Of a stretch of DNA of 64,000 nucleotides, positions 8,337 through 64,000 are shown piece by piece (position 1 is the stretch's first letter; each line of letters begins with the position of its first letter). The position numbers and the translations under genes are program-made. The DNA lies in NCBI RefSeq assembly GCF_003955755.1, contig NZ_CP034465.1, positions 806,001 through 870,000 on the forward strand. Direction: 5' to 3'. A model generated the notes under the pieces. That model saw nothing but the letters and a program-made list of their open reading frames with translations, made no database searches and was not told where the DNA came from. Source of the DNA: Jeotgalibaca ciconiae. Lineage in GTDB: Bacteria > Bacillota > Bacilli > Lactobacillales > Aerococcaceae.

Positions 8337-8375
8337 TTTATAATCCTCCCTTTTGTTTTCCCTTGATTCGCTTAC

Positions 8376-8614: not shown

Positions 8615-8655
8615 AAAAAAGCAGAACAAATCCACATGGACTGTTCTGCTTTTTT
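8615..8655 (-). terminator. veg terminator
   Basis: Hairpin AAGCAGAACA / TGTTCTGCTT with further TCC/GGA pairing, flanked by A- and T-runs, 36 bp past the veg stop. Confidence 0.85.
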
Positions 8656-8690
8656 AATTTAACTATTTATATACTATTGAATTGCGAGAA

Positions 8691-8948
8691 TTATGCATAT
8701 TCCCTGGTTTCTTCATCATAAAAAGAAATTTCTACTGAAGAAGTTAAAATATCTGCATAACTGTATGAAACACGTTTAAAAGCATTTTCCTCTTGATCTA
8801 AATCTACAACGAAAACAGAATGGTAAGTCTCACGTAAAATTCCCTTTCGTTCAATTTTACGTTTCCTTCCAGCTTGTGCAGTCAACAACACCTTTTTTCC
8901 TAAACGATTGTCAAGTTGTTCTTTGATTTCCATCAAACTATCTGGCAT
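8691..8948 (-). CDS. veg: Veg family protein
   Basis: An 85-residue protein matching the Veg family of Firmicutes over its whole length: IKEQLDNRLGKKVLLTAQAGRKRKIERKG, then Y.SVFVVDLDQEENAF.RVSYSYADILT. B. subtilis Veg influences biofilm matrix gene expression; the molecular action is unclear. Its place directly downstream of rsmA and its strong promoter are as in Bacillus. The start follows GTGAGGTGAAGGGGC, with AGGTG as the likely ribosome site. Confidence 0.93.
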   Translation of the reverse strand: MPDSLMEIKEQLDNRLGKKVLLTAQAGRKRKIERKGILRETYHSVFVVDLDQEENAFKRVSYSYADILTSSVEISFYDEETREYA

Positions 8949-8971
8949 GCCCCTTCACCTCACTGTGTGAT

Positions 8972-9000
8972 ATTGTAACACAATATAATGAAATTTTCAA
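8972..9000 (-). promoter_or_regulatory. veg promoter
   Basis: Minus strand TTGAAA (9000–8995), 17 bp, TACAAT (8977–8972), about 25 bp upstream of the veg start. The veg promoter of Bacillus is also close to consensus. Confidence 0.8.
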
Positions 9001-9063
9001 GTATATCACAGGGAGAAAAGGGATGCAAGTAAAAGATTTACATATTATTAATAATTGTGCATT

Positions 9064-9960
<897 letters not shown>

Positions 9961-10539
9961 CTATTTCATCTCCTTTTGAACAGCAGGCGGAATTGGGATC
10001 CCATTCTGTTCCATAGCTGCTAATATTTCTTCTTGCGTAATTTGGAACATACGAATTCTCTTTACAAACTGTTTGCCGTTTGTGTGCCCGATCCCTAAAT
10101 AATCACCTAACTGTTTTCGATATTCTGATGATTTTGGTTTGCCCAATAATCCCAGCTCCATAAAAAATGCAGACAAATCATTTTGATCTGTCTCAAAATA
10201 TGGCGTTTGTACATTTTCCAAAGCAGAACGTATCACTTCTTCGCTGGCATGCTCGATCCCTAAACTCCCGCCTTTTGGTGACTGGCAGTCTTCTTTTCGA
10301 ATAAAAGCATGTTTGACCCCTGGAATCCGTTGAATAATTATTTCCCGAATTTTACCACCAGGAAAATCTGGATCTGTTAAAACGATTACCCCTCGAATTT
10401 TCTGTGCCTTCTCAATTTGCTTGAGTATTTCCTCATCAATTGCAGAACCATTTGTTTCAATCGTATCTGCATTTACTGCTAATTGAACTTTCTTAGTATC
10501 ATCTCGGCCTTCAACTACAATAATTTCTTTTATCTTCAT
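9961..10539 (-). CDS. rnmV: Ribonuclease M5
   Basis: A 192-residue TOPRIM nuclease that cuts 5S rRNA precursor at both ends with help from ribosomal protein L18. The TOPRIM Glu motif is in IIVVEGRDDTKKVQLAV and the D.D motif in GVIVLTDPDFPGGKIRE. C-terminal KRIRMFQITQEEILAAM is also family-typical. Its start overlaps the tatD stop by 4 bp (ATGA type) and rsmA follows directly. The tatD–rnmV–rsmA order is standard in Firmicutes. Confidence 0.96.
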   Translation of the reverse strand: MKIKEIIVVEGRDDTKKVQLAVNADTIETNGSAIDEEILKQIEKAQKIRGVIVLTDPDFPGGKIREIIIQRIPGVKHAFIRKEDCQSPKGGSLGIEHASEEVIRSALENVQTPYFETDQNDLSAFFMELGLLGKPKSSEYRKQLGDYLGIGHTNGKQFVKRIRMFQITQEEILAAMEQNGIPIPPAVQKEMK

Positions 10540-11315
10540 ACTTCATCCAATCTAAATAAACGATTTGCATTACGACTAGTAATTTCTCCTATTTCTGAAA
10601 CATCTAATCCTCGTAATTCCGCAACTCTCTCCGCCACATATTTTACATAGGCGGGTTCATTTCTCTTACCTCGGTAAGGAACCGGCGCTAAATAAGGAGA
10701 GTCCGTTTCAATTAACAGGCGGTCAAGGGGCACTTCTTTCGCGACTTCATGCACTTCAATTGCTTTTTTAAAAGTAACGACTCCGCTCAGAGATATATGC
10801 ATTCCTAAATCAATAAAATGGTGCATATAAGCCACATCTCCACTGTAGCTATGCATGATTCCTCCAATAGATGAAACGTCTTCCTCACGAAGAATACGAT
10901 AGGTATCCTCGATTGCATCTCTCATATGGATGGAGATTGGTAATTGTAATTGTTTTGCAATTTGTATTTGTTGTCGGAATACTTTTTCTTGGACTTCCTT
11001 GGGGGATGTATTCCAATGATAATCAAGCCCCATTTCGCCCATTGCAACCACTTTATCTTCTGTTAATGAAATCATTAATCCATCTTGTATTTCAGAACTA
11101 TAGTTGCCTGCCTCAGTGGGATGCCAGCCGATAATGCTATATATTTCTGGATGCATTCTACTTAGTTCTAACGATTTTTTTATAGTTGGTGAATCGAAAC
11201 CAACAACGGCAAACCTTCCAACTCCTATTTCTTTTGCACGTTGAATGACTTCTTCGACATCTTCATCGAATGCATCAACATTCAAATGACAGTGTGTATC
11301 AAAGAGCACAGACAT
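10536..11315 (-). CDS. TatD family metal-dependent hydrolase
   Basis: A TIM-barrel metallohydrolase of about 259 residues. Metal ligands are visible in FDTHCHLNVDAFDED (HxH), GEMGLDYHWN (Glu), PISIHMRDA (His), GGIMHSYSGD (His) and LIETDSPYLAP (Asp). Family members are 3'–5' exonucleases or DNases. I choose the ATG of MSVLFDTH (5 bp after AAGGA) over a TTG six codons upstream. Downstream overlap with rnmV is 4 bp. B. subtilis YabD holds the same position between metG and rnmV. Confidence 0.94.
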   Translation of the reverse strand: MSVLFDTHCHLNVDAFDEDVEEVIQRAKEIGVGRFAVVGFDSPTIKKSLELSRMHPEIYSIIGWHPTEAGNYSSEIQDGLMISLTEDKVVAMGEMGLDYHWNTSPKEVQEKVFRQQIQIAKQLQLPISIHMRDAIEDTYRILREEDVSSIGGIMHSYSGDVAYMHHFIDLGMHISLSGVVTFKKAIEVHEVAKEVPLDRLLIETDSPYLAPVPYRGKRNEPAYVKYVAERVAELRGLDVSEIGEITSRNANRLFRLDEV

Positions 11316-11417
11316 CAACTTCCTTTCTAACAAGTATACTCTTCCCTATTATACTGTTTTTTCTGCTAAGTTTCTTTTTAGAATCCTGTTTTTAATAATA
11401 TTATCAGAAATTAGAAA

Positions 11418-11442
11418 AGCTGGAGGCAATTTTGCTCCAGCT
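11418..11442 (-). terminator. metG terminator
   Basis: Perfect stem AGCTGGAG / CTCCAGCT followed on the minus strand by TTTTCTAATTT, 16 bp after the metG stop. Confidence 0.8.
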
Positions 11443-11457
11443 CATCTCTTCTAATTA

Positions 11458-13563
<2,106 letters not shown>

Positions 13564-13574
13564 CTATGGATGCT

Positions 13575-14336
13575 TTATTTTTGAGTATAATCATAGATTG
13601 CATCACGCAAGAATTGTGCCGCTCCACTTCCAGCTGGTCCATCATAATATTTCCTGAAACGTTCATCCATGACGTACATATCACTTAGTCCTCGTTGCGC
13701 TTCTTCAGAGTACGATGGCCACGTATAAGTCAGCCATTTTTTATGTAATTCGACCACTTCAACTGCTTCTTCGCCAGCGATATCTTGTGTCTTCATAGCA
13801 TTTTTCAGTTTTTCTAAAATATCTGCCGCCATTTCCTGCATTTCGTTATATTGTTTTTCCGTTAAATTGGCAAATTTTTTGTTTGATTTTTCTACGGTTT
13901 CTTTTCCATAACGCTCTCTAATTTCTTCCCCGTATTTCTCTTCATTTTCTGCTAATTGTTTTTGTTTAAATCCTTCAAATTTTTCTTTATCGGTCATTTT
14001 TATCGTTCCTTTCTTACTTGCTAATGTTTTATCGATTGTCTGCAGTAGTTGATCCAGTTGTTGCCTTTTTGCCAGCAGCTGTTTTCTATGATTTTTTAAA
14101 GACGTTACGCTATCAAAGTTGTCATCATCCAAAATATTTTTTATTTCTTCCAACGGCAGTTCCAACTCCCTGAAAAATAGAATCTGTTGCAATCTTTCAA
14201 TTTCTTCCTCTCCATAAATACGATAGCCGGAAGAATTAACTCGCTTTGGTTTCAATAAATTGATTGAGTCATAATAACGAAGCGTGCGGCTGCTGACAGA
14301 AGCTAACTGACTTAATTTTTTGATGGTATATTCCAT
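13575..14336 (-). CDS. MerR-family regulator with TipAS effector domain
   Basis: 253 residues. Residues 1–70 form a MerR winged helix (YTIKKLSQLASVSSRTLRYYDSINLLKP...GYRIYGEEEIERLQQI), followed by a coiled-coil dimer helix. Residues about 120–253 are a TipAS/thiostrepton-binding-like domain (MADILEKLKNAM...LHKKWLTYTWPSYS...GLSDMYVMDERFRKYYDG..GSGAAQFLRDAIYDY). Such proteins (B. subtilis Mta) activate multidrug efflux or their own promoter. Its own promoter has the long 19-bp spacer expected for MerR control. No efflux gene is beside it, so its targets are unknown. Confidence 0.9.
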   Translation of the reverse strand: MEYTIKKLSQLASVSSRTLRYYDSINLLKPKRVNSSGYRIYGEEEIERLQQILFFRELELPLEEIKNILDDDNFDSVTSLKNHRKQLLAKRQQLDQLLQTIDKTLASKKGTIKMTDKEKFEGFKQKQLAENEEKYGEEIRERYGKETVEKSNKKFANLTEKQYNEMQEMAADILEKLKNAMKTQDIAGEEAVEVVELHKKWLTYTWPSYSEEAQRGLSDMYVMDERFRKYYDGPAGSGAAQFLRDAIYDYTQK

Positions 14337-14356
14337 TCACGTACCTCCCTATTGCT

Positions 14357-14387
14357 ATAATAGACCTTTACGTAACGTCAAGGTCAA
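14357..14387 (-). promoter_or_regulatory. MerR-type promoter with 19-bp spacer and operator
   Basis: Minus strand TTGACC (14387–14382), 19-bp spacer, TATTAT (14362–14357). A dyad GACCTT–N11–AAGGTC lies in the spacer. Over-long spacers with a dyad are the hallmark of promoters untwisted by MerR proteins, so self-activation is likely. The MerR-TipAS start lies 21 bp downstream. Confidence 0.85.
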
Positions 14388-14399
14388 GTGTTTTGAAAA

Positions 14400-14620
14400 A
14401 AATTATTATGAAATTTTGTAATTAGATGGATTATTCCGTCTAGTGAGTTGCAGTTTGAGCAGCATTAGATGGAATTACATTCTATTCTCATCTAGTGGAT
14501 TCCCGAAAATGATACTACTGAACGGAATAACAGTTTTTTCCGTCTAGTGGCGACTTTAAAGGGGCTTCAGTGGATTAAATACTCTCTTACTACTTGAGGT
14601 AGACTAAAATACTGGAGACA
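14400..14620. repeat. non-coding stretch with short imperfect TCTAGTG repeats
   Basis: No gene seen. TCCGTCTAGTG occurs twice (about 14427 and 14540), with variant CATCTAGTGG about 14491 and reverse-like TTAGATGGAAT about 14465. These are short and spaced irregularly; role unknown. Confidence 0.35.
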
Positions 14621-14623
14621 GAA

Positions 14624-14652
14624 AAAAGACAGCTCCGGAGAACTGTCTTTTG
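14624..14652 (-). terminator. terminator of the NlpC/P60 gene
   Basis: Stem AAAGACAG.TC / GA..CTGTCTTT around CTCCGGAG, followed by TTTTTTC on the minus strand, 18 bp after the stop. Confidence 0.8.
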
Positions 14653-14669
14653 TTTATTATTCATTTAAA

Positions 14670-16007
14670 TTATCTTGCTACGCGAACAGCGAAGCTTGGA
14701 GTGAAGTATTGTGTACTGTTTACTTCTACAACGCCGCCTTCGTCAGGAGCATGGATGTATTGACCATTTCCTAGAGCGATTGCCACATGATATGGGCTGC
14801 CTTTTGGTCCCCAGAATAGTAGGTCACCAGCTTGTGCTTGTGATACAGAGATTTGTGTTCCCGCATATTGTTGAGGACCTGTCCAGCCGCCAATTTCGAT
14901 TCCGTATGCTTCACGGAATACATATGCTGTAAATCCAGAACAGTCAAAACCACTTGGTGTTTTTCCACCCCACACATAAGGTACGCCTAGATATTTATAG
15001 GCTACACTAACTACATCACCAGTTGGCGCTGAAATTGTCGGAGCAGCTGGCTTTTCTTCAACTTTTTCAACAGGAGTTGAAGGAGCTGGTGCTGAAGGTT
15101 GTGAAACCTCAGTCGTTACCTCAGTATTCACTGTAGTATTTGTAGTATTGTTCGTTTGTGTTGGCGCTGTTACTGTTGGAGTTTGGTTTGATGCAACTTC
15201 AACTACTGACTCTTGTGCAGCTTCTTCAGCAGCTTTAGCTGCTTCAGCTTCTGCTAATAATGCAGCTTCCGCTGCAGCAATTGCTGCTTCTTCTGCAAGC
15301 CTTTGACGTTCTGCTTCTTCAGCAGCACGACGATCAGCTTCTTCTTTTTCTGCGATAGATCTTTGACGATCTTCTTCTGCAGTTGCTTTTTCAGCACTTA
15401 AAGCAGCTAATGCACTTTCTTGCTCAATATTTTTTACTTCTAATTGCCCTTTTAATTCTTCAAGCTCATATGTCATTGACATAATATCATTTAACTTTTC
15501 TTCAGATTCGACTTTTTTATCTTCCACTGCTTGTTGATCTTGAACTTGTTGCTCTACTAAATCTTTGTTAGCAGAAACCATTGTTGTAACTACGTCTACT
15601 CGAGAGATTAAGTCTGTCAAAGATTCTGAAGCAAAAATAAAGTTCATATAATTTGTGTTTGATCCATTTACTTGAACTGAACGAGCTTGTTCTTTCAATT
15701 GGCCTTCACGTTGATCGATAATTTGTTGTAATTGTGCAATTTCTTCTTTCAGTAAATCAATTTCTTCGTTTGTTGCCAGACGTTGATTTAATAATTCTGA
15801 TGCACGATCTTCAGCTGCTGTAATTTCAGCTTGTACTTCTGCAAGCACAGCTGCTGCAGAATCAACACGATTAGATAGTTCGTTAACTTTCTGTTCTTGT
15901 TCTTCAATTTTATCAGTTAGTTCATCAGCAGATGCCGCATATGGCGCTACAAAAGTTGCTGAAAGGATTGAACTAGTTAAAATAAGAGTAGCAAGTTTCT
16001 TTTTCAA
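14670..16007 (-). CDS. Secreted coiled-coil NlpC/P60 peptidoglycan hydrolase
   Basis: 445 residues. A Sec signal peptide ends near residue 27 (PYAASADE). Residues about 28–240 are a long coiled coil, rich in Glu, Gln and Ala, like PcsB/CwlO-type hydrolases; residues 240–330 are an Ala/Thr/Pro-rich linker. The C-terminal NlpC/P60 domain has catalytic Cys356 (GFDCSGF), His407 (PYHVAI) and a further His419 (YIHAP). Such enzymes cut the D-Glu–diamino acid bond or crosslink region of stem peptides and assist cell separation; PcsB-like forms are activated by FtsEX. Its 5' side faces the divergent tyrS promoter. Exact cleavage bond cannot be told from sequence. Confidence 0.93.
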   Translation of the reverse strand: MKKKLATLILTSSILSATFVAPYAASADELTDKIEEQEQKVNELSNRVDSAAAVLAEVQAEITAAEDRASELLNQRLATNEEIDLLKEEIAQLQQIIDQREGQLKEQARSVQVNGSNTNYMNFIFASESLTDLISRVDVVTTMVSANKDLVEQQVQDQQAVEDKKVESEEKLNDIMSMTYELEELKGQLEVKNIEQESALAALSAEKATAEEDRQRSIAEKEEADRRAAEEAERQRLAEEAAIAAAEAALLAEAEAAKAAEEAAQESVVEVASNQTPTVTAPTQTNNTTNTTVNTEVTTEVSQPSAPAPSTPVEKVEEKPAAPTISAPTGDVVSVAYKYLGVPYVWGGKTPSGFDCSGFTAYVFREAYGIEIGGWTGPQQYAGTQISVSQAQAGDLLFWGPKGSPYHVAIALGNGQYIHAPDEGGVVEVNSTQYFTPSFAVRVAR

Positions 16008-16229
16008 GTCGATTCCTCCGTTTTTCTTTACGCTTTATTTAAAACTTTAATGTTCATTTATATTTTTTTAAGAGTTTCTTTACTATTTTTCTCAACGTTG
16101 AAATCATATCACAGTTTATTTGTGAAAAATCACTTTTCGACAACTTGTAGCTGCTTTGTAACAGAACTGTAATGATAACCGACATATGTTTCAAATTCAC
16201 TCGTAGTTAGAAATATCGGTGAGACTATA

Positions 16230-16258
16230 TTGACTTTTTTTCTGTACTTGACTATACT
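16230..16258 (+). promoter_or_regulatory. tyrS promoter
   Basis: TTGACT (16230–16235), 17 bp, TATACT (16253–16258). The start point near 16265 fits the beginning of the T-box leader. Confidence 0.8.
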
Positions 16259-16264
16259 GATTTC

Positions 16265-16516
16265 AATAATTAAAAACAATGATAAGCATTGAAGGAACGC
16301 AGTAGAAATAAGGTTTTGCATAATAGAGAGCCAGGATTGGTGGAAACTGGTACACCCTTATCTTGAATTACATTCCCGAGCTTCTTTTAAAAGCGCGTGA
16401 CATACGATACATGTTAGAGTGGTTTCATTATTCATTTTTTAATGAAACAATTTGGGTGGTAACACGGTGAATAATCGTCCCTGATGAAGACAATTGTCTT
16501 TGTCAGGGATTTTTTT
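16265..16516 (+). promoter_or_regulatory. T-box riboswitch (tyrosine) with terminator
   Basis: A leader of about 250 nt. The T-box core GGGTGGTAACACGG sits at 16454–16467. The terminator stem TCCCTGA..AAGAC / GTCTT..TCAGGGA is at 16478–16509 with a T7 tail. A Stem I region starts near 16321 (AGAGAG), and the UAC at 16369–16371 followed by A is a plausible tyrosine specifier. Uncharged tRNA-Tyr pairing with the T-box bulge would favour the antiterminator and switch on tyrS. The gene behind it confirms the amino acid. Confidence 0.92.
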
Positions 16517-53550: not shown

Positions 53551-53645
53551 TCCAGTCGACATAGACACAGACATTGTCTACCTCAATCAAAATAATCAAA
53601 TAATCAGCTCCAACTAATTCAGCAAGTTTTGCTACTGCAAAATCC
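53551..53645 (-). pseudogene. internal fragment of arcC (carbamate kinase)
   Basis: About 95 bp matching arcC 60215–60303 at roughly 90% by eye, with an extra 6-bp ACACAG and an altered stop. The translation [24 protein letters not shown] matches [24 protein letters not shown] in arcC. There is no start and no rest of the gene. It overlaps the last codons and the stop of the LacI gene. Confidence 0.85.
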
Positions 53646-54678
53646 CACAACTCTCCCTTTCAACTAATGAGACAGGTACTACATTTATAGATGGCTTCGT
53701 TTCACCTTCAATCGATGCAACAATCGACTTTGTGGCGATATCAGCCATTTCTCCTAACTTCATTTTCATAGAAGTCAATGGCGGATTAAAATATTTAGAC
53801 GATTCAATATCATCAAATCCTATAACAGAGATGTCATCTGGAACTTTGAGACCTCTTTCTTGAATAGCTTTGATTGCTCCAAATGCTATCTTATCATTAC
53901 TGGCAAAAATAGCCGAAAACTCACTATTTCCATTAAATAATTTTTTCGCAGCCTCATATCCAGCATTTTCCACAAATTCGCTATTTACAATCAAGTTCTT
54001 ATTTACTTCTATCCCTGCATCTTCTAATGCTTTTTTGTATCCTCTTATCCTGTCTTTAGAAGAGAATTTGACCGTACCGCCTGTAATATGTGCGATTTGT
54101 TTATGTTTTTTATCTATGAGATATTTTGTCGCACAATAAGCGCCGTTGTAATTGTCCGCATTCACTATCATGCACTGGTTATAGGTGGCATCTTCAGGTC
54201 TGATTGATTGATCGAGCAGCACAACTTTATACCCTCTATCAATGATTGTTTTTATCGATTCATCGTCGTCATTCTGGCCTATGAAAATCCCACCAGAAAT
54301 TGTCTTATTATAAAAACTCTCTTTAATTTTTTCATAGCCTGCGACGCTATGTATAATATGGACAAGAACCAGGTAATCCATCTCACTTGCTGTTTCTATC
54401 ACTGAACTAGTAAATTCTAGATAATACGGACTTTTGGTAATTCTATTTTTTAGTCCAACTTCTTCATGTATCAGGTCTATAATAAATAAGCCGATCACCT
54501 TATTTTGGCTTCCTGCAAGCATCCTTGCTGAAGCATGTGGCACATACTCATGTTCCTTAATTACTCTTAAAACCTTTTCTCTTGTTTCTTCCGAGACATT
54601 TGAATAATTATTTATCACTCTGGATACAGTACTGCGTGATACTCCGGCAATTTTTGCAATTTCAGTACTATTCATCAT
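53632..54678 (-). CDS. LacI family regulator of the beta-glucoside cassette
   Basis: About 348 residues. The N-terminal HTH and hinge are NSTEIAKIAGVSRSTVSRVINNYSNVSEETREKVLRVIKEHEYVPHASARMLAG; the C-terminal periplasmic-binding-like domain (VIGLFIIDLIHEE..., FASNDKIAFGAIKAIQERGLKVPDDISVIGFDDIESSKYFNPPLTSMKM) binds the inducer. I start at ATG 54678 after GGAG. The last residues and stop (C-G-I-L-Q-stop) fall within the arcC-like fragment, so the native C-terminal end may have been replaced. It likely binds CATRAACGCGCGTTYATG sites at 59586–59680 and a similar site at 54698–54715. Confidence 0.92.
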   Translation of the reverse strand: MMNSTEIAKIAGVSRSTVSRVINNYSNVSEETREKVLRVIKEHEYVPHASARMLAGSQNKVIGLFIIDLIHEEVGLKNRITKSPYYLEFTSSVIETASEMDYLVLVHIIHSVAGYEKIKESFYNKTISGGIFIGQNDDDESIKTIIDRGYKVVLLDQSIRPEDATYNQCMIVNADNYNGAYCATKYLIDKKHKQIAHITGGTVKFSSKDRIRGYKKALEDAGIEVNKNLIVNSEFVENAGYEAAKKLFNGNSEFSAIFASNDKIAFGAIKAIQERGLKVPDDISVIGFDDIESSKYFNPPLTSMKMKLGEMADIATKSIVASIEGETKPSINVVPVSLVERESCGILQ

Positions 54679-54697
54679 AAAGGCATCTCCTTTCGTT

Positions 54698-54715
54698 CGT
54701 AAACTCGTGTTCATA
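54698..54715. promoter_or_regulatory. putative LacI operator (autoregulation)
   Basis: CGTAAACTCGTGTTCATA matches the two cassette operators (CATAAACGCGCGTTCATG) at 13 of 18 positions, including TAAAC and GTTCAT. It lies 20 bp upstream of the lacI start codon. Confidence 0.6.
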
Positions 54716-54895
54716 CTGCAACACTATATTATTTGTCCATTTTTTTCAATCTTTTTCTGTTTTTCGAAAAACTCTGCCTGCTTCAGGATTCCAGCAAAAG
54801 GAGACTTTTGGCAATACCTTTCATGCAGAAACCATCAGCAAATGCCTTCAACCGCAGAACAAACCAACACCTCGGTGTTTTGTTCTAAAAATAAG

Positions 54896-54925
54896 GCACC
54901 CAGGATTATATTTCATCCTGGGTGC
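54896..54925 (-). terminator. terminator of the PTS/GH1 operon
   Basis: Perfect stem GCACCCAGGAT / ATCCTGGGTGC followed on the minus strand by CTTATTTTTAG, 86 bp past the IIA stop. The rest of 54716–55011 holds no gene I can support (a 19-codon frame at 54946–55005 is discussed elsewhere). Confidence 0.85.
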
Positions 54926-55011
54926 TCTATGTTTTGCTGCTGGCATCAGATTCTGCCTGTAAAGTAAGCAAGCAATTCTAGTTCGTCTAATATTTTCTCT
55001 TTCATGTTCAC

Positions 55012-55326
55012 TTATTTATTGTTTAACTGTTTGAACATTTCTATCATTTCTTCGATTAATAATTTAGTTGTCTCCGTCGACATCAATTGATCTTCTGCGT
55101 GCATGATGATTAACGAAAGTTCAACTTTTTCGCCAGCAGCTTCTTTTTGTATCAAAGAAGTATGTGCATGATGGCCTTTCACAAAATATTCCGATGCTTC
55201 AGCCATTTTCTTTTCTGCTTCATTGTACTTTCCTTCTCTGGCATCTCTTAATGCTTCAATAGCCAATGATTTGGCCATTCCAACATTACTGATTATACTA
55301 AAAGCAGTTAATTCAATTCCTTCCAT
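55012..55326 (-). CDS. PTS lactose/cellobiose-type IIA
   Basis: 104 residues, all helical, family typical. The phosphorylated His lies in the GHHAHTSLIQKEAAG segment (residues 51–65), and an Asp near residue 81 (MHAEDQLM) binds the trimer metal. It passes phosphate from HPr to the IIB subunit. It is the last gene of the cassette, 55 bp after IIC. Confidence 0.93.
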   Translation of the reverse strand: MEGIELTAFSIISNVGMAKSLAIEALRDAREGKYNEAEKKMAEASEYFVKGHHAHTSLIQKEAAGEKVELSLIIMHAEDQLMSTETTKLLIEEMIEMFKQLNNK

Positions 55327-55381
55327 GTGTAAATCTCCTATCTTGAATCTTTCGGTTTGTTCTCAGCGTACTGCAGCTTTT

Positions 55382-56746
55382 TTAAATCGATTCTACTACT
55401 TCTTGTGACTGTATTTCATTCTCCATTTCATCTTCAATAATCGCTGCTTTATTCGCTGCGATTACAAACGGCGAGTAAATCAATACACTCACCGCAAGAC
55501 AGATGAATCCGACAAACAGTGCGACGATATTTCCGCCTGTACCCAAGAAAGGCATCAATGGTCCTGGTGTTGTCCAAGGAATACCAATCGTTACCGGCGG
55601 CATAATCTTAAGAATCATAACTGCGGTATAACCAATCATAATGTTAACCAGTGGCGCAATAATAAATGGAATAATGTAAATCGGATTCAGAACAATCGGT
55701 AAACCAAAGATAACCATTTCGTTTATATTGAACAAACCGGGTGCCAAAGAAAGTTTGGCAATACTTTTTGATTCCTTATTTTTCGAGAAAATCAACATAG
55801 CAATGATTAGACCCAATGTCGCTCCTGAACCGCCATATTCAGAGAAAGCAGTAGCTAAACCACTGTACGTTATCGGATAAGGCGCTCCCCATGTAGTACC
55901 GCTTTCAGCATAATGTAAGAGGTTTGCGTTTCCGGCTTCCGAGAACATGGTATCTCGAATAGCTGCAATCGTATTTGGTCCGTGTATTCCCATAGCCCAT
56001 AGCGATTGAGATAATAATGCTAAAATAAGCACTGAGAATAAACTTTGACTCATTCTGGTCAATGGTGTTTGAATGATGTTATAAATTAATTCATGTAATC
56101 CGCCCGGTGCAGCCATTTTTACAAAGTAGTTGAGGACGGAGAAGAAAATCGTCGTGATGATAATCGGGATCAACACTTTGAAGGATCTTGCAACTGCTGA
56201 AGGTACTTGTTCTGGCATTTTAATTTCTAACTTATCTGATTTTGCTAATCTAGACATTAGTTCGCCGACCAAGAGCCCAACCAAAATTGCTACAAACAAC
56301 CCTTGTGCGCCCATATATTGATTTGTTAGATAATTTACTCCTTCATTATCGAAATAATCAGGATAGATGATGAAATAAACAGAGATTGCGGTCAAACCTG
56401 TCAACAAATCATCGCCTTCCATTAGTTTCGCAAGGTTTCTGGCTATCAAAAACACAATCAGAATCGAGAAAATATCAGCTGAACCTTTAACAACTGGAGC
56501 GAACACTGCTTGGAATTTAACAATACCCGGAAAAAGTTTATCGAATTGCAAGATTTTAAACATGAATCCATCTGCTGACAAGAAAACATTATTCAATAAC
56601 ACCATCAATGATCCTGCCATCGTTAATGGGAATGATAAAATAAAAGCATCTCTTACTGCGCATATATGTCTTTGAGCGTTCAACTTTGTAGCTACAGGCA
56701 CTAACAATCTTTCTATAGCACTTTGAAATTTGTCCATAAAACTCAT
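55382..56746 (-). CDS. PTS cellobiose-type IIC permease
   Basis: A 454-residue membrane component with about ten helices. The N-terminal FQSAIERLLVPVATKLNAQRHICAVRDAFILSFPLTMAGSLMVLLNN and central GIHGPNTIAAIRDTMF, GGSGATLGLIIAMLIF, FNINEMVIFGLPIVLNPIYIIPFI are conserved in the ChbC/CelB/LicC family. It transports beta-glucosides such as cellobiose coupled to phosphorylation. IIB lies 18 bp upstream. Confidence 0.95.
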   Translation of the reverse strand: MSFMDKFQSAIERLLVPVATKLNAQRHICAVRDAFILSFPLTMAGSLMVLLNNVFLSADGFMFKILQFDKLFPGIVKFQAVFAPVVKGSADIFSILIVFLIARNLAKLMEGDDLLTGLTAISVYFIIYPDYFDNEGVNYLTNQYMGAQGLFVAILVGLLVGELMSRLAKSDKLEIKMPEQVPSAVARSFKVLIPIIITTIFFSVLNYFVKMAAPGGLHELIYNIIQTPLTRMSQSLFSVLILALLSQSLWAMGIHGPNTIAAIRDTMFSEAGNANLLHYAESGTTWGAPYPITYSGLATAFSEYGGSGATLGLIIAMLIFSKNKESKSIAKLSLAPGLFNINEMVIFGLPIVLNPIYIIPFIIAPLVNIMIGYTAVMILKIMPPVTIGIPWTTPGPLMPFLGTGGNIVALFVGFICLAVSVLIYSPFVIAANKAAIIEDEMENEIQSQEVVESI

Positions 56747-56764
56747 TTTTTTTAGCCTCTTTTC

Positions 56765-57067
56765 CTAGTTTATTTTTTGTAAAGCATCTTCTAAAATCGC
56801 TTTTCCATTCATCATTCCATACAGCCGCATGTCCATCACTTCTACGGGAATTCTGCCTTTTACAAGTTTTTCAACGGTCCCTTTCTGGAAACGCACTTGT
56901 GGTCCTAAAAGAACGATATCGACATTATCAACGGCCGTACTTGCCTCTGCAACTGGAAGAGCATCTATTTCTACTTCAATTCCTTTTTCCTTTGCGGAGT
57001 TTCTCATTTTGGTCACAAGCAAACTTGTGGACATTCCTGCTGAACATACTAGTAAAATTTTTTTCAT
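56765..57067 (-). CDS. PTS cellobiose-type IIB
   Basis: 100 residues, phosphotyrosine-phosphatase-like fold. Phospho-accepting Cys8 is in KKILLVCSAGMSTSLLVTKM, followed by VDIVLLGPQVRF. Passes phosphate from IIA to the sugar in IIC. Third in the cassette, after the GH1 gene (47-bp gap). Confidence 0.95.
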   Translation of the reverse strand: MKKILLVCSAGMSTSLLVTKMRNSAKEKGIEVEIDALPVAEASTAVDNVDIVLLGPQVRFQKGTVEKLVKGRIPVEVMDMRLYGMMNGKAILEDALQKIN

Positions 57068-57114
57068 GGTCTATCTCTCCTTGTTTTTTCATATTCATTG
57101 ATTGTGAACGATTC

Positions 57115-58554
57115 TTATAACTCTTCTCCATTGGTGCGAATAACATTTTTGTACCAATAGAAGCTGTTCTTTTTGATTCTTCTCAAATCTTTTTGATCAT
57201 TTTCATCTCTGTCCACATACACAAATCCATAGCGTTTTTGATAACCATTCAACCAGCTTAACAAATCTGTAAATGACCACGTGCAGTAGCCTAGAAGATC
57301 AACACCATCTGTTATTGCTTCTTTACAAGCCTTGATATGTGCGCTCAAGTAATCGATTCTGTGAGCATCATTGACAGTGTCGTCTTCTTCAAGCTTGTCG
57401 AATTCTCCAAGCCCGTTTTCTGTAATAAGTATTGGAAGATTATATTTGCTGGTCAATCTTCTTAGTCCAATTCTTAAACCAGTAGGATCAATTGCCCAGT
57501 CCCAATTTGTTGTTTCCAGATGTGCATTTTTTGCATTTTTATAAACTCCGGGTAATCCGCTTTCTTTAGCGGTGCCTTTTTTACCTGTGTTATTGATACC
57601 TTCCGATTGCCCTACTCCATCAAGCGGATTGAATGCAACTGTGCTTGTTTGGTAATAATTTATTCCGATAAAATCTGGTTTTACTCTTTCCAATAATTCA
57701 AGATCTCCATCTTCAATAGTGGGTGCGATTCCAAGTCTTTCGTAATATTTAAAAGCGAACACTGGATATTTACCTTTGCAATAAACATCGAGCCACCAAT
57801 TGCAATTTAAATCCTCTGCATTTTCTGCGGATAAAACATCTTTTGGATCGCAACTGAATGGATAAACTGGTCCAAATGCAAAGCTTGGTCCAATCATGCC
57901 GTCTGGAACATATTTTTTGAAGGATTCAATTACGGTAGCATTAGCTAAGTTCGCTATATGATTCGCCTCAAGCATTCTCTTTTGATCTTTAACAGCTGGC
58001 GGGTGCATAGCGGTTACGTAACCTAGTGTTACAAATATATTTTGTTCATTCAATGATACCCAGTGCTTAACTTTATTCCCAAATCTCTTGAATAACGTTA
58101 CACAGTATTCATTAAAATCATGAATGATTTCTCTTGATTCCCATCCGCCGTACAAATCTTGAAGATGTTGAGGTAAATCCCAATGGTACAACGTAATGAT
58201 TGGTTGGATATTGTTCGCGATAAGTTCATCTATCAAGTTTTCATAAAATTTTAAGCCTTCTTCATTTACTTCATTTCTTCCATTGGGATAAATACGTGTC
58301 CATGCAATTGAGAATCTATAAGCTTTCAATCCCATTTCAGCCATTAAAGCTACGTCTTCTTTGTATCTATTGTAATGGTCGACCGCGATATTCCCGTTTG
58401 TATTCTTAAATGTTGTCCCCGGTTGGCGGGTGTACACATCCCATACACTTTCCCCCTTTCCATCTTTGTCCCATGCTCCTTCAACCTGATACGCTGCAGA
58501 TGCCGATCCCCATAGGAAATCATCTTGGAATTTGTCTAATTCTTCGTATATCAC
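57115..58554 (-). CDS. GH1 6-phospho-beta-glucosidase
   Basis: A 479-residue TIM-barrel hydrolase that splits imported phosphorylated beta-glucosides. Acid/base Glu170 is in WVSLNEQN; nucleophile Glu379 in ILITENGLGEFD. FLWGSASAAYQVEGAWDKDGKGESVWD is the N-terminal GH1 signature. The C-terminal region (YGFVYVDRDE) carries the segment that in family members binds the 6-phosphate less strictly, so a plain beta-glucosidase paired with the ROK kinase is possible. GTG start after GGAGGAG. Linked to IIB, IIC, IIA and the ROK kinase. Confidence 0.93.
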   Translation of the reverse strand: MIYEELDKFQDDFLWGSASAAYQVEGAWDKDGKGESVWDVYTRQPGTTFKNTNGNIAVDHYNRYKEDVALMAEMGLKAYRFSIAWTRIYPNGRNEVNEEGLKFYENLIDELIANNIQPIITLYHWDLPQHLQDLYGGWESREIIHDFNEYCVTLFKRFGNKVKHWVSLNEQNIFVTLGYVTAMHPPAVKDQKRMLEANHIANLANATVIESFKKYVPDGMIGPSFAFGPVYPFSCDPKDVLSAENAEDLNCNWWLDVYCKGKYPVFAFKYYERLGIAPTIEDGDLELLERVKPDFIGINYYQTSTVAFNPLDGVGQSEGINNTGKKGTAKESGLPGVYKNAKNAHLETTNWDWAIDPTGLRIGLRRLTSKYNLPILITENGLGEFDKLEEDDTVNDAHRIDYLSAHIKACKEAITDGVDLLGYCTWSFTDLLSWLNGYQKRYGFVYVDRDENDQKDLRRIKKNSFYWYKNVIRTNGEEL

Positions 58555-58627
58555 TGAATCTTCTCCTCCGTTTTCAATATAAATTTATTTTCAAACATTC
58601 TTTCTTGAAACAAAACTGTTGTGTATT

Positions 58628-59521
58628 TTAGATAGAAGCTTTTATAACAGCACCCAGTATGTTGGCATCGTTATTATGCTTGCATCTATTGATTTCGGTA
58701 GTAATAAAATCCGCTTCTAAATACTCCCTACAGGTTTTCTTATACGTTTCTCTTACTTTATTGATGAACCAGTTTTCTTCGGATATTCCTCCACCGATGC
58801 ATATCACTTCAGGATTATAAAAAACGGTGATTACTATTAATTGAGCCACTATGTTTCCTATCCATTCATCTACTGAAGACACAGCTGATTCATTTCCGTT
58901 TAGGTACTTCTTGCAAACCTCATTTCCATACTGAACCTGCTCCTCCCGATTAGCTTTTTTATTGTATAAATTAACCAATCCGGTTATCGAAGCATAATCA
59001 CCCATCTTATCAAGGCCGCCTATCTCAGCGTTTACAAAAGGCATATTATGGAATTCCCCCGCAAACGAATCTTTTCCATACACAACTCCGTTTTCGTCGC
59101 ATATGCATCCGCCTGTTCCTGTACCTATAATCAAAAACGCTGAAGATTTGTATCCCTTTGCATTTCCAATTTTAAACTCACATAAACCTGCCGCTTTTGC
59201 ATCATTGATTGCGGACACTTTTTTATTTGTCCTTTTGTTGATTTCATTATTGATATTTGTGCCGTACATTATAGCTACGTTAGGAGCAGCATAGGATTTA
59301 ACATTCGAATCTTCATCAATAAGGCCGGGTGCGCTTACACCGATTTTGTCAATTTCATCTACATTTCTTATATTTGAACATATATAATCGTAAAATTCGT
59401 CGGCTGTATTGTACTTAACCGTTTCGACTTTCCACTTCTCTTTGATGCGATGTTGCTTGTCTATTAATGCATACTTAATGAACGTCCCTCCTATGTCTAT
59501 TCCTAAACTTATTTTCCCCAT
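58628..59521 (-). CDS. ROK family sugar kinase (beta-glucoside kinase type)
   Basis: 297 residues. The phosphate loop is GIDIGGTFIKYALID and the second motif FLIIGTGTGGCICDENGVVYG. The usual ROK zinc motif CxCGxxGCxE is absent; the stretch there reads EFHNMPFVNAEIGGLDKMGDYASITGLV, as in BglK-like and some Gram-positive ROK kinases. It likely phosphorylates glucose or a beta-glucoside released in the cell. First gene of the cassette, behind two operators. Confidence 0.88.
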   Translation of the reverse strand: MGKISLGIDIGGTFIKYALIDKQHRIKEKWKVETVKYNTADEFYDYICSNIRNVDEIDKIGVSAPGLIDEDSNVKSYAAPNVAIMYGTNINNEINKRTNKKVSAINDAKAAGLCEFKIGNAKGYKSSAFLIIGTGTGGCICDENGVVYGKDSFAGEFHNMPFVNAEIGGLDKMGDYASITGLVNLYNKKANREEQVQYGNEVCKKYLNGNESAVSSVDEWIGNIVAQLIVITVFYNPEVICIGGGISEENWFINKVRETYKKTCREYLEADFITTEINRCKHNNDANILGAVIKASI

Positions 59522-59585
59522 AACATTTCTCCTTAAAATGAAGGTCTTGCAGTTTGCCTTCTTATATTGCAGCTTGATTCAAACT

Positions 59586-59714
59586 CATAAACGCGCGTTC
59601 ATGATTTGTTAAAAAGAAAAACGATACGCTCATTTCCACCTTTTTTTATACGATGAACATCCCATGAACGCGCGTTTATGGATATAGCATATACTGAAAC
59701 CAATTACATTTCAA
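59586..59714 (-). promoter_or_regulatory. promoter with two LacI operators for the beta-glucoside cassette
   Basis: Operators CATAAACGCGCGTTCATG (59586–59603) and CATGAACGCGCGTTTATG (59663–59680) are exact reverse complements of each other and 77 bp apart. Minus strand TTGAAA (59714–59709), 17 bp, TATGCT (59691–59686) makes a promoter whose start lies at the second operator. Two half-matched, in-phase-like sites could allow loop repression by the LacI protein at 53632–54678. The ROK start is 65 bp below the first operator. Confidence 0.85.
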
Positions 59715-59829
59715 TACTTTTTTTATTTTTTTTATTTTTAATGTGTAGTTTTTGTTTGAAAAGTACCTTTTAATTCCACCAATACTAAAAAATAAGGGAG
59801 CGATTTCATCTTCATTTAACCAGTTTTTT

Positions 59830-59862
59830 AAAGTACAGAGCAAATTTCTGGGCTGTACTTTA
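59830..59862. repeat. AAAGTACAG / CTGTACTTTA hairpin, copy 3
   Basis: Same stem as 53513–53545 (AAAGTACAGAGCA..., GGGC.CTGTACTTTA), T-rich on both outer sides. It sits downstream of the arcC terminator. With copy 2 it brackets the cassette. Confidence 0.6.
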
Positions 59863-59929
59863 TTTTTTTGACTTCAAAATTGATAGAAATGAACATTTTG
59901 ATTTTCATTATCATTTTTCAGAAAAAAAT

Positions 59930-59965
59930 ACCTTCTCAAGTTAATAAATCAACTTAAGAAGGTAT
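59930..59965 (-). terminator. arcC terminator
   Basis: Stem TACCTTCT.AAGTT / AACTT.AGAAGGTA followed by TTTTTTTC on the minus strand, 32 bp past the arcC stop. Confidence 0.9.
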
Positions 59966-59996
59966 AGATTTTTATCACGCTAAACTGTTAAAGCAA

Positions 59997-60938
59997 TTAT
60001 TTTATTACCGTTGTTACATCACCGTTACCATCAAATAATTTACCAGCATTTTCTAATGATGTAATAATCGCTTTTCCATCTTTCGCATTTTCAACAAATT
60101 CAATTGCTGCTTCTACTTTTGGTAACATGCTGCCAGGAGCGAATTGGTTTTGTTTTATATATTCTTTTAATTCATCGACCGTTACGTCGGTTAATTTTTT
60201 TTGGTCTGGTTTATTCCAATTGACATAGACATTGTCTACCCCAGTCAAAATAATCAAATAGTCCGCTCCAACTAATTCAGCAAGTTTTGCTGCTGCGAAG
60301 TCCTTATCAATAACCGCTTCAATTCCTGTAAATCCTTCCTCAGAGGCGATTACCGGAATTCCACCGCCACCGGCAGCAATCGTAATCACACCGTTATCTG
60401 TCAATGATTCTACAATTGGGTATTCTAAAATACTCTTTGGTTTTGGTGAGGGTACAACTTTACGCCAACCACGACCAGCATCTTCAATAAAGGTCCCGTT
60501 CCCTTTTTTCATTTCAACCTTTGCTTCTTCCTCGCTTAAAAATGGACCAATCGGTTTTGATGGATTTTCAAAAGCCGGATCATTTTCATCCACTTGTACT
60601 TGAGTAACTAAAGAAACAACTGGCTTTTCAATATTATGAGCAATCAATGCTTCACGTAAAGCATTTTGCATCCAAAAACCAATACTTCCTTGTGTCATTG
60701 CCACAAGAGAGTCCAGCGGAAATGCTGGATTTTTTTCTGAATCTGCTGCGGCATGCTGAAGCAACAAATTCCCTACCTGCGGACCGTTTCCATGAGTGAT
60801 CATAATTTGGTGGCCCTCTTTTACAAAACTGACTAAATGCTCACTTGTTTGACGCAATGATTCTTTTTGTGCTTCCGCTGTTGGAATATCTGTTAAAATG
60901 GCGTTTCCACCTAAAGCAACAACTATTTTTTTCGGCAT
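59997..60938 (-). CDS. arcC: Carbamate kinase
   Basis: 313 residues. [69 protein letters not shown] and [12 protein letters not shown]-like [16 protein letters not shown] are the classic family motifs. Enzyme transfers phosphate from carbamoyl-phosphate-derived carbamate to ADP, making ATP. With DUF2877 and FdrA–DUF1116 genes upstream it fits the catabolic carbamate kinase AllK (YbcF) rather than the arginine deiminase route; no arcA or arcB is in the window. An internal fragment is copied at 53551–53645. Confidence 0.96.
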
Positions 60939-60988
60939 ATTTCCATTCTCCCTTACTCTCGCTTATTATAAAAATCAACGACCGCTCT

Positions 60989-61831
60989 TCATGACAAAGA
61001 TTTCTCTAGTTTCTGCAAAAATAAAAAAATACCAAAAAGCGTGTCCCATCCGGAAGTGTGTCCATAATCAGCAATTCTTGAAATAGCTTCATTCCAGTCA
61101 GTCATTTTTTTATCTTTGATTATTTGCAACAGAGAGACAAACTGAGTGCTTATGTAACCAGATAACAAAGCTTTGTAGTAAGCATCACTTACTTTTGTTG
61201 TTTGTGTACGCTCTAATTGAGTTAAAATGAACGAAGACCATTCCATTGGCATAGAAAAAGAGTTTGACATCATAATCATGCCCATCAACATGTCATCCCC
61301 ACTTGGTGTAAGGCCTATCCCTCTTCCTAAAAAGTGAGCTACGAACTGCTGAAAAAACTCATGATTTTCCCAATTTGCATCCAAGAATTCTTCTATAAAC
61401 AATTGATCACGTTCATTTGCAACTAATTCAGTTTTCTCATCAATTCCTAAAGATTGGAAATTGTTCTTTAAATTATAAATCAACTTCGGGTTGATTTCAT
61501 CTATTTTAGGTATTTTACAATCAATTTCATTAAATTTATCCAGTTCTAACTTCCAAGTTATCTGTCTAGCATAAATCATCCAATTATTTTGACGGCTTTT
61601 TACACGATCCTCCACTTTGATACTTGTTAGTAATTTCTTCCATTGATTAGATGGAATACCAATACCAAATGAAGAAAGTTCTTTGCCAGTTTCGCTAAAA
61701 TGAATTAACTGATCCTTAAAAAGAACATTGAAGCTGTTTGTAAATATCGAATGAACATAACCAAACCCATCTTCTGAAAGAACATGGGATAAAAAATTAC
61801 TTTTTATCCCATGGCTAACATTCGTAATCAT
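60989..61831 (-). CDS. DUF2877 family protein (AllH/YlbF-like)
   Basis: 280 residues. The C-terminal half holds FVAHFLGRGIGLTPSGDDMLMGMIMM, the DUF2877 signature, and ends GYISTQFVSLLQIIKDKKMTDW...ISRIADYGHTSGWDTLFGIFLFL. In E. coli the family member YlbF (AllH) is one of three proteins needed for oxamate carbamoyltransferase (AllFGH). It starts 1 bp after the stop of the FdrA–DUF1116 gene and precedes arcC by 50 bp, so the three are an operon. Confidence 0.85.
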   Translation of the reverse strand: MITNVSHGIKSNFLSHVLSEDGFGYVHSIFTNSFNVLFKDQLIHFSETGKELSSFGIGIPSNQWKKLLTSIKVEDRVKSRQNNWMIYARQITWKLELDKFNEIDCKIPKIDEINPKLIYNLKNNFQSLGIDEKTELVANERDQLFIEEFLDANWENHEFFQQFVAHFLGRGIGLTPSGDDMLMGMIMMSNSFSMPMEWSSFILTQLERTQTTKVSDAYYKALLSGYISTQFVSLLQIIKDKKMTDWNEAISRIADYGHTSGWDTLFGIFLFLQKLEKSLS

Positions 61832-61832
61832 C

Positions 61833-64000
61833 TTATTCTACCGAAATTCCTAATGACTCAGCATAGGCAACTAACGCCTTTTCAAAACAAGCAAGCGGAG
61901 CTCTCACCGTACCAGCGCCTACTTGGCCTTTTCCGGCAATTTTATGCGCAATACCTGTATTGATAAGCGGTGTAATCCCTGTTTCCACTACTTTACGTAC
62001 ATCAATTCCAAGAACTGAACCTTTGAAGTCCCAAGTAGGAATCGTCCAATTTGGATTCAAGCTCACGGCAATTTTTTCCATTTCATTCGATACATCCAGC
62101 GCTTCTTGGAATCCGCCTGCTCCTACAAATCGGGTCACTCCAGGAGCAGCAATCATTGCCATCCCTCCAACCCCTACTGTTTCTGTAATGGCACTATCTC
62201 CAATATCCGGATTCGCATCCTCTTCCGTAAAGCCAGTGAAGTACAATCCGTTCGGGGTGTTTACTGGCGCAGTAAACCATTCATCTCCTAGTCCAGCAAT
62301 ACGAACTCCAAAGTTTTCTCCGTTTCGAGTCAATGTAGTTACTACCGTTCCCTCTTTAATCTTACGCGCATAATCGACCATTGCTTTTCCGATTGCCATC
62401 ATAATATTTAAGAAGAACTGGTCTGTCTGTGCTAAGAAGTCAATAACTGCTTTCTTATCCTTTTGATCAATATCCAATTCAATAATGGTTGGTGTAACTT
62501 CTTTTAGGAAAATGAGTGATGCTGCTATATTCCGTTGGTGGAATTCATCCCCCATCGTAATAGCTCTGGCAACAATTACATTCAGATTCAAGCCGCCTTC
62601 CAGCTTGCGCAGCGCTTTTCCTAAAACAGGTCCAAGAACATCTTTCATCCAAGTGAGGCGGTCCACTACTTCTTGTGAATAGGCACCAAAGCGGAGTACT
62701 TTCCCAATTCCTTCATTCATTGTACAGTATGCAGTTGTACCGTCTTGCTTGTTCTCAACCACTAGTACCGGCATGTTAGCAGAAGTGATTCCACCCATAG
62801 GACCTACTGCATTCACATGGTGACACGGAATAAATTCCACCTCTCCGCTTTCTAATTGACGACGAGCTTCTTCTTCCGAATCAGCCCAACCTTCAAACAA
62901 GCTGGCTCCCACACAAGAACCTTGCATCGGTCCAGTCATATTTTCGTATTTGATTGGAGGGCCTGCATGAAGCAATACTTTGCCGTCCAATTCCGGAATC
63001 ACACTGATAGCAGGAACGACATCCATCAAGAATGGTTGTGAATCTCTTAAACGTCCAATTACTTTCTCGTTGGCTTGGTCAATTTCTTCTGCATGCTTAT
63101 TCAACTCATTTAAAATGCGAATGAGTTTTTGATTCCCGCCAGCAACCGGTCTCCAATCAAATTGGATGGCTTTTCCGCCATAAGTTTCAATCGATTCAGT
63201 AAAGCTTTCAAGACCTACGTTGATGACTTGTGGTGTGGAATTTAATAAAGCGTCTACCTGTGGGCTGATTTCTGGCAGAGTCACTTTTTCTTTTTCGTAG
63301 GCCACGACTCCTTTGGGTTCTTCTACTAATTCTGCACCCATTAATTCTAAAGCAAGACGAATGGCACGAGCATTGCTATCCTCTACTAACACACCTGATT
63401 CTTTCAGTACTTCCACTGATTTATCGTAATCTTGCGGATCATATTTTGTACCACACACAGTTGCCACAATATAGAAATCGCGGTCAGCTTTTCTTGCTGT
63501 TTCAAAAGCTTCTTCAATAGCAGGACGCAAAGCATTTGCCATATCGGGATGCGAACCATATCCTAACACGATATCCAGTAAAATAATCCCAGTTGTTTCA
63601 TCTTCTACTGCTTCCTTGATTTTATTAATCCGTACTTCCGGATCAATCATCGGATGAGGTCTGCCTTGCGTATATACATCATCACCAAGGTCAACCACTT
63701 GGAATCCTTTTGCGTTTAAAATGTAACCTTCTTCTTTTTTCGATTCTTCTACGTTCAATACTTCTGAAATTAACATAGCAGCTTCATTTGCTAACGTCCC
63801 TCCAGAGTATAAGCCTTTTACTGTTTTTCCTTCCGGTAATGTTTTAGTTACTTCTGAACTAAGTGGCTCTAAATAGCGTTCTTTCACTTCATTTCCTTGC
63901 GCTAAATCAACCGCAATCTGAGCTGTTTCTTCCAAAGTATGGGCTAAATAAACATTCCCTTCGTGATTTTCCGGTTTTTCGCCTAAGAAAATCGCAACAA
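61833..64000 (-). CDS. Fused FdrA (C-terminal part) – DUF1116/YlbE protein, N-terminus outside window
   Basis: The frame stays open to the right edge (about 722 codons here), so the TTG near 63935 is not the true start. Edge residues VAIFLGEKPENHEGNVYLAHTLEET match the FdrA region before its second CoA-ligase-like domain (GYILNAKGFQVVDLGDDVYTQGRPHPMIDPEVR..., ILLDIVLGYGSHPD). After DSNARAIRLALELMG a short linker leads to DUF1116 (STPQVINVGLESFTESIETYGGKAIQFDWRPVAGGN ... to the end). In E. coli these are two genes, fdrA (allF) and ylbE (allG). Proposed role: carbamoyl transfer releasing carbamoyl-phosphate for ArcC; substrate (oxamate, or another carbamoyl donor) is inferred. Confidence 0.85.
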   Translation of the reverse strand, partial: VAIFLGEKPENHEGNVYLAHTLEETAQIAVDLAQGNEVKERYLEPLSSEVTKTLPEGKTVKGLYSGGTLANEAAMLISEVLNVEESKKEEGYILNAKGFQVVDLGDDVYTQGRPHPMIDPEVRINKIKEAVEDETTGIILLDIVLGYGSHPDMANALRPAIEEAFETARKADRDFYIVATVCGTKYDPQDYDKSVEVLKESGVLVEDSNARAIRLALELMGAELVEEPKGVVAYEKEKVTLPEISPQVDALLNSTPQVINVGLESFTESIETYGGKAIQFDWRPVAGGNQKLIRILNELNKHAEEIDQANEKVIGRLRDSQPFLMDVVPAISVIPELDGKVLLHAGPPIKYENMTGPMQGSCVGASLFEGWADSEEEARRQLESGEVEFIPCHHVNAVGPMGGITSANMPVLVVENKQDGTTAYCTMNEGIGKVLRFGAYSQEVVDRLTWMKDVLGPVLGKALRKLEGGLNLNVIVARAITMGDEFHQRNIAASLIFLKEVTPTIIELDIDQKDKKAVIDFLAQTDQFFLNIMMAIGKAMVDYARKIKEGTVVTTLTRNGENFGVRIAGLGDEWFTAPVNTPNGLYFTGFTEEDANPDIGDSAITETVGVGGMAMIAAPGVTRFVGAGGFQEALDVSNEMEKIAVSLNPNWTIPTWDFKGSVLGIDVRKVVETGITPLINTGIAHKIAGKGQVGAGTVRAPLACFEKALVAYAESLGISVE

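Follow-up and report, generated by a model that had tools for sequence, protein, structure and literature searches.

Genes at the locus

The window analyzed here is a 64,000-nt stretch of contig NZ_CP034465.1 of Jeotgalibaca ciconiae (positions 806,001 to 870,000, forward strand). At its end, the minus strand encodes a protein in which relatives of the Escherichia coli proteins AllF (FdrA) and AllG (YlbE; DUF1116) are joined through a conserved module, here called S, and genes for AllH and carbamate kinase follow. Judged from its sequence, the fusion is most likely the Gram-positive single-chain form of oxamate carbamoyltransferase (OXTCase). The features are as follows.

61833..64000, minus strand: AllF-S-AllG fusion, in-window part (residues ~279-1000 plus stop)
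63336..64000, minus strand: AllF (FdrA) core, in-window part (residues ~279-500; Ligase_CoA domain 342-495)
63240..63335, minus strand: variable spacer (residues 501-532; mean column identity 0.545 in 36 fusions)
63102..63239, minus strand: module S (residues 533-578; NxG...F...WxPxAGG; predicted beta-alpha-beta-alpha)
61836..63089, minus strand: AllG (DUF1116) part (residues 583-1000)
60989..61831, minus strand: AllH (DUF2877), putative third OXTCase subunit, 280 aa (PF11392, 79.4 bits, cut-off 25)
59997..60938, minus strand: carbamate kinase (arcC), 313 aa (TIGR00746, 419.7 bits, cut-off 358.25)

The minus-strand frame 61833-63998 is open throughout, and the gene continues past the window edge in locus L003 (G000:C1:865001-885000; window coordinate = L003 + 59000), which is identical to the window across the overlap (window 59001-64000). 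The complete fusion is a single open reading frame (ORF) of 1000 aa (L003 2833-5835, minus strand; window 61833 to the extrapolated position 64835), beginning with an ATG preceded by the ribosome-binding site AAAGGAGG. Residues 1-579 matched the FdrA model NF004760 (NCBIfam; 707.3 bits, cut-off 433), i.e., AllF is present at full length. Pfam matches were CoA_binding (190-285), Ligase_CoA (342-495), and AllG (PF06545, DUF1116; 666-881, 322.4 bits, cut-off 27). In fold searches, the AllF front shared the fold of succinyl-CoA synthetase alpha and ATP citrate lyase, and the AllG part matched 3clq. AllH begins 1 nt past the fusion stop codon.

An earlier note on this DNA, made from the letters of the window, had placed FdrA and DUF1116 in one chain, followed by AllH and arcC in the E. 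coli order, in a lactic acid bacterium. The two model matches on one 1000-aa ORF, the PF11392 and TIGR00746 matches over their cut-offs, and the genus (Jeotgalibaca; Carnobacteriaceae, Lactobacillales) bear this out. The sequence past 64000 supplied the FdrA N-terminus and, upstream, the ureide gene AllD; none of the contrary outcomes that the earlier note had named was seen, as the front matches FdrA, no stop interrupts the frame, and the upstream genes include one for ureide use.

Distribution of the fusion

The fusion was used as a query against one genome per species (GTDB r220), yielding 341 relatives, and the best 80 are referred to as the named loci. Since the query itself was fused and the best matches alone were retained, this sample favors fusions. 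Hidden Markov models (HMMs) of the fusion parts were scanned against the fetched loci. AllF, the middle module, and AllG were fused in 77 of the 80 named loci (L087 among them stops at a contig edge), and split in L083 and L085 (Listeria) and L091 (Paenibacillus profundus). The named loci span Bacillota, Actinomycetota (Olsenella, Collinsella), Chloroflexota, and Fusobacteriota.

Genomes were also surveyed by AllG. Within the genus, three of six were positive and all three were fused, which is two of the five genomes besides that of the window. In the order, 108 of 395 genomes were positive, 51 of them with a frame of at least 1000 residues. The phylum-wide sample had 60 positive genomes among 398, just two of them fused, the window's genome included. 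Thus, the fusion is one of two main enzyme forms in the order, common in Gram-positive relatives and no surprise in itself. A view of it as something unusual does not agree with 51 of the 108 AllG-positive order genomes or with the 77 named loci (a fused-query sample).

Beyond the presence of two genes in E. coli, no support was found for an assembly or frame artefact. The same fusion recurs in 77 of 80 named loci, in 51 of the 395 genomes of the order, and, within the genus, in two of five genomes besides the window's, some of the genomes being one-contig; this recurrence excludes chance or a hidden stop, and an artefact is scarcely credible.

Module S

The interval between AllF and AllG had been described as a short linker. 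Instead, it consists of the variable spacer (residues 501-532), a conserved module (533-578), and a second variable join of ~10 residues (579-590). Across the 36 fusions, mean column identity was 0.545, 0.71, and 0.47 in these three parts, respectively, and 0.81 in AllG. The ~46-residue module S has no Pfam model and looks new. Nearly invariant residues in 34 diverse S sequences were N, G, F, W, P, P, A, G, and L (NxG...F...WxPPAxG...L). The sole match of the S profile in the PDB was E. coli FdrA (3dmy).

The placement of S takes four forms. The fusion carries it centrally, E. coli AllF has it as its last residues (with AllG starting after it), E. coli YahG has it at its start (the end of YahF has none), and other genomes encode it as a free ORF. 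The free ORFs measure 56-88 codons from stop to stop and lie between AllF and AllG; as genes they are about 50-60 codons long. A total of 21 free S were collected, and in several of them a GGAGG-like sequence was noticed by eye upstream of a possible start. Free frames of at most 83 codons made up 21 of the 65 stronger S places, one of them near a contig end. Two free S peptides had no Pfam match, and in NCBIfam they matched nothing but the final part of the FdrA model, with scores far under the cut-off.

Selection on free S was assessed in 16 comparable pairs. Four had unsaturated synonymous sites, with ratios of non-synonymous to synonymous substitution rates (dN/dS) of 0.04-0.10. In the other 12, synonymous sites were saturated and non-synonymous differences amounted to 6-28%. 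Because of the low dN/dS, and of few non-synonymous changes against saturated synonymous sites, free S appears to be a genuine protein under selection. Such a gene is so small that annotation can miss it.

An S alignment (A2) was searched against the 398-genome phylum sample and matched 58 genomes: 57 of the 60 AllG-positive and one of the 338 AllG-negative, the latter (G372) weakly (E 1e-4). A2 was built mostly from loci of the same sampled genomes, so matches in AllG-positive genomes were expected; the near-absence elsewhere was not. S was not matched in three of the 60 AllG-positive genomes: G028, G332, whose AllG matches weakly and over part of its length, and G210, where AllG is a fragment with an internal stop. 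By a distance rule, seven of 164 AllG frames lacked S, which counts against S going with every AllG.

S may supply a loop of a joint active site. If S is obligate, co-expression of AllF, AllG, and AllH would not suffice in bacteria that encode S as a tiny gene of its own. No description of S or of an AllF-AllG fusion was found in the open-licence literature (titles and the starts of abstracts). The accessible text of PMC11326118 does not mention a fused AllF-AllG (its one "fusion" is a lacZ fusion), nor do the accessible parts of the CanOE 2012 paper (PMC3364942) and a nitrifier paper (PMC12625717), both of which discuss the genes. Module S and the possible cyclic-ureide feed described below appear to be the new parts here; the fusion itself is widespread.

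In some loci (L049, L088, L140, L145, L149, L179), two nearby AllG copies occurred with one free S, a hint of a heteromeric AllG.

Phylogeny and predicted enzyme

A quick AllG tree (IQ-TREE) was made of 107 rows, into which 31 of 84 fused frames entered. A 36-row clade with a Shimodaira-Hasegawa-like approximate likelihood ratio test (SH-aLRT) value of 100 holds the window protein together with the Listeria-type split pairs, E. coli AllG, and every fused row. Outside this clade were E. coli YahG and numerous further groups, and the family comprised several deep subfamilies. In a quick AllF+AllG tree of 53 rows (36 fused, 14 split, 3 outgroup), the window fusion and E. coli were in a 50-row clade (support 100). 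E. coli sits on a long branch. Of the fused rows, 35 formed one clade (99), and L127 was placed among split pairs; a single origin of all fusions was not rejected (approximately unbiased test, p 0.351).

Gene content, completeness, clade membership, and S conservation are seen directly in the sequences; on this background, the fusion together with AllH is predicted to be OXTCase, with a probability of roughly 0.85. The complex would convert oxalurate, a product of purine breakdown, and phosphate to oxamate and carbamoyl phosphate. The neighboring carbamate kinase would then phosphorylate ADP with carbamoyl phosphate, yielding ATP along with ammonia and CO2, and AllD, encoded upstream, would supply oxalurate from ureidoglycolate. 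The carbamoyl-phosphate-generating, ATP-yielding route proposed earlier is kept as a probable one. The fixed 1:1 ratio of AllF to AllG also stands, because both are in one chain; that chain would tie AllF, S, and AllG at 1:1:1. A single chain may also be easier to purify and crystallize than a mix of separate subunits.

E. coli AllFGH is OXTCase and requires all three genes; AllF is a homodimer by crystal structure, and AllG is predicted to be one (PMC11326118). The E. coli cluster allF-allG-allH-allK (annotated as fdrA, ylbE, ylbF, and ybcF) has the same families, order, and clade as the window genes, with AllD nearby. It differs in that AllF and AllG are separate, with S ending AllF, and in its regulators (AllS/AllR in E. 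coli, PucR-type beside the window cluster); furthermore, none of AllB, AllC, and AllE passes its cut-off in the window genome. OXTCase was measured in Streptococcus (Carnococcus) allantoicus in the 1960s, and its genes were named in 2024 in E. coli. Activity in crude extracts is on record for S. allantoicus, Streptococcus D10, and S. faecalis ATCC 11700, and no gene is stated to have been found in any strain (PMC11326118). They are also lactic acid bacteria, with the same reaction as predicted for the window fusion. The fused gene offers a specific candidate for OXTCase of Gram-positive bacteria.

The name of the FdrA model would suggest an acyl-CoA synthetase, and the AllF front does have the succinyl-CoA synthetase alpha/ATP citrate lyase fold. 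However, the succinyl-CoA ligase models were far below cut-off (NF004230, 59.7 of 336 bits; TIGR01019, 58.5 of 353.2 bits) and the complex of E. coli acts as a transcarbamylase (PMC11326118), so that a synthetase is very improbable. Aspartate/ornithine transcarbamylase was absent from the Pfam, NCBIfam, and fold matches of the fusion, the fold lists being filled by other domains.

A carbamoyltransferase of the same build could instead act on another N-carbamoyl compound, as presumed for E. coli yahEFG and other AllG subfamilies. The several deep AllG subfamilies, a second copy in the window genome that groups with E. coli YahG (SH-aLRT 100), and the lack of a visible known oxalurate source in half of the named loci are in keeping with this. 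The fusion itself groups with E. coli AllG, not YahG, and has AllD in its cluster, and we consider another substrate improbable.

Upstream genes and the source of oxalurate

The following genes lie beyond the window; coordinates are those of L003.

5994-7610, plus strand: PucR-type regulator, divergent from the fusion
7704-8984, minus strand: MFS transporter
9008-10252, minus strand: SDF symporter
10389-12128, plus strand: second PucR-type regulator
12363-13592, minus strand: CodA-like amidohydrolase
13617-14984, minus strand: permease-like protein
15228-16289, minus strand: AllD, ureidoglycolate dehydrogenase (604.7 bits, cut-off 496.2)

The two PucR-type regulators are the sole upstream cluster genes off the fusion's strand, and AllD is 9.4 kb upstream of the fusion start. 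The earlier note had seen no ureide genes. This holds for the window; AllD was missed because it lies just outside, and AllB, AllC, AllD, AllE, and an allantoin permease stand beside some related fusions (L025, L026, L042). Curated cut-offs were passed in L025 by AllB, AllC, and the permease, and in L026 by AllE; the other names rest on clustering with these. Among hand-chosen split OXTCase pairs of the order, AllD was alongside in nine of ten. As AllD or allantoin genes adjoin related fusions and split pairs, oxalurate is the best-supported substrate.

Several observations weigh against the OXTCase assignment. AllH is poorly conserved, with 26-48% identity to the window's AllH in 71 named loci. 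The arcC product was below the cut-off of NF006926 (241.7 of 416 bits, NCBIfam), an equivalog model that we take to be AllK. AllB, AllC, and AllE of the canonical allantoin pathway were not found in the window genome at curated cut-offs: AllC had no match at E 0.001, the best AllE match had 25.7 bits (cut-off 200), and the best AllB match had 243.7 bits (cut-off 357.85). The best AllB-like gene sits in a pyrimidine-type operon and was read as PyrC. Allantoin itself is therefore an unlikely starting point, and ureidoglycolate would be imported or come from elsewhere. Neighbors of the 80 named loci were counted in flanks that reach at most 10 kb and are in places shortened by the end of a contig: AllD was found in 24, AllC in 16, any of AllB, AllC, and AllE in 17, a CodA-like gene in 13, and a class-V aminotransferase, taken for PucG, in six. 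None of these genes was within the flanks in 40 loci, so the oxalurate source is unseen in many relatives. The earlier suggestion that the donor may differ is partly retained: it agrees with the lack of AllB, AllC, and AllE over cut-off and with the CodA-like and permease-like genes as an alternative feed, but AllD is present upstream.

CodA-like hydrolase and permease

All 14 CodA-like proteins keep H56, H58, H206, and H238, and have Phe and Asn in place of the Glu and Asp of E. coli CodA. We take that Glu, after the third His, to be catalytic, and the Asp to be a metal/base residue. The CodA-like protein does not fit a cytosine deaminase (CodA), with Phe and Asn at the key sites in 14 of 14 and scores below the three cytosine deaminase cut-offs listed (NCBIfam). 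The neighboring permease-like protein (L003:13617-14984; 455 residues) had no Pfam, NCBIfam, or PDB match; a relative occurs in 12 of 14 CodA-like loci and in one locus with no CodA-like gene.

The CodA-like hydrolase perhaps opens a cyclic ureide, giving further oxalurate. Compatibly with the OXTCase assignment, it and the permease-like protein could supply oxalurate or ureidoglycolate from such a compound, parabanate being the simplest, and the operon would run without allantoin enzymes. The gene order fusion-ArcC-Perm-CodA in five loci fits this, as do the Phe/Asn substitutions. The CodA-like gene and AllB, AllC, or AllE shared none of the 13 CodA-like named loci (~2.8 expected from 17 of 80), and AllD was missing from 12 of the 13. 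In the order, the CodA-like subfamily (at least 667 bits) was present in 47 of 395 genomes, of which 43 were AllG-positive against 12.9 expected (relatedness not corrected), and the gene was within 25 kb of AllG in 21. According to the title of a 1965 work by Tigier and Grisolia, parabanic acid reportedly induces OXTCase in a Streptococcus. Hydrolysis of parabanate gives oxalurate (PMC5703782).

On the other hand, the proposed substrate is a guess based on chemistry and on one title, the window's own cluster also has AllD, and the loss of Asp could mean a dead or differently working enzyme. In addition, AllG is missing from four genomes of a single genus that have the CodA-like gene, and in 26 of the 47 genomes it is not within 25 kb of AllG. 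The cyclic-ureide feed is possible but rather doubtful. It would suggest that purine oxidation products could be fermented without allantoin enzymes.

A broader view is offered tentatively, at somewhat less than even odds. OXTCase and its relatives would have four parts, i.e., AllF, AllG, AllH, and the overlooked ~50-residue S with a WxPxAGG loop completing the active site. Many genomes of the phylum would encode S as a free microprotein between the AllF and AllG genes; elsewhere it would be attached to one of the two or, as in the window fusion, to both. The operon of CodA-bearing lineages would then be a complete parabanate (cyclic ureide) fermentation, with permease, ring-opening hydrolase, OXTCase, and carbamate kinase.

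The E. coli yahE-yahF-yahG-yahI-yahJ cluster likewise combines genes related to AllH, AllF, AllG, carbamate kinase, and CodA, and it resembles a second carbamoyltransferase pathway. It is unlike the window cluster in that its AllG is of another subfamily, S is at the start of YahG, and YahJ retains the Glu and Asp that the CodA-like proteins have lost.

Other observations

A terminator-like stem follows arcC (59928..59965, minus strand; 17 pairs, T run) and is a consensus match alone; terminator-like sites numbered 22 in 16.8 kb against 10.7 in shuffles. By eye, the region adjoining arcC (window 53632-59521) resembles a beta-glucoside phosphotransferase system (PTS) operon, with members named from sequence as a LacI-type regulator, PTS A/C/B parts, a family-1 glycosidase, and a ROK kinase.

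An Abhydrolase_3 alpha/beta-hydrolase was near PucR and the fusion in 67 of the 80 named loci. In the window genome, this gene is an intact ORF far from the fusion (L188:8274-9122; G000:C1:355274-356122), and its product has 63% identity to that of J. caeni.

The second AllF/AllG copy of the window genome is yah-type and damaged (L004:8182-9369; G000:C1:1928182-1929369). Its AllF gene combines the first ~57 residues of a permease with AllF sequence from roughly residue 180 onward, in one reading frame. The corresponding locus of a sister genome (L163) has ~3.1 kb more at this place, consisting of the permease, an ankyrin-repeat protein, and a full AllF; E. coli K-12 yahD-yahJ (L126) also holds an ankyrin protein.
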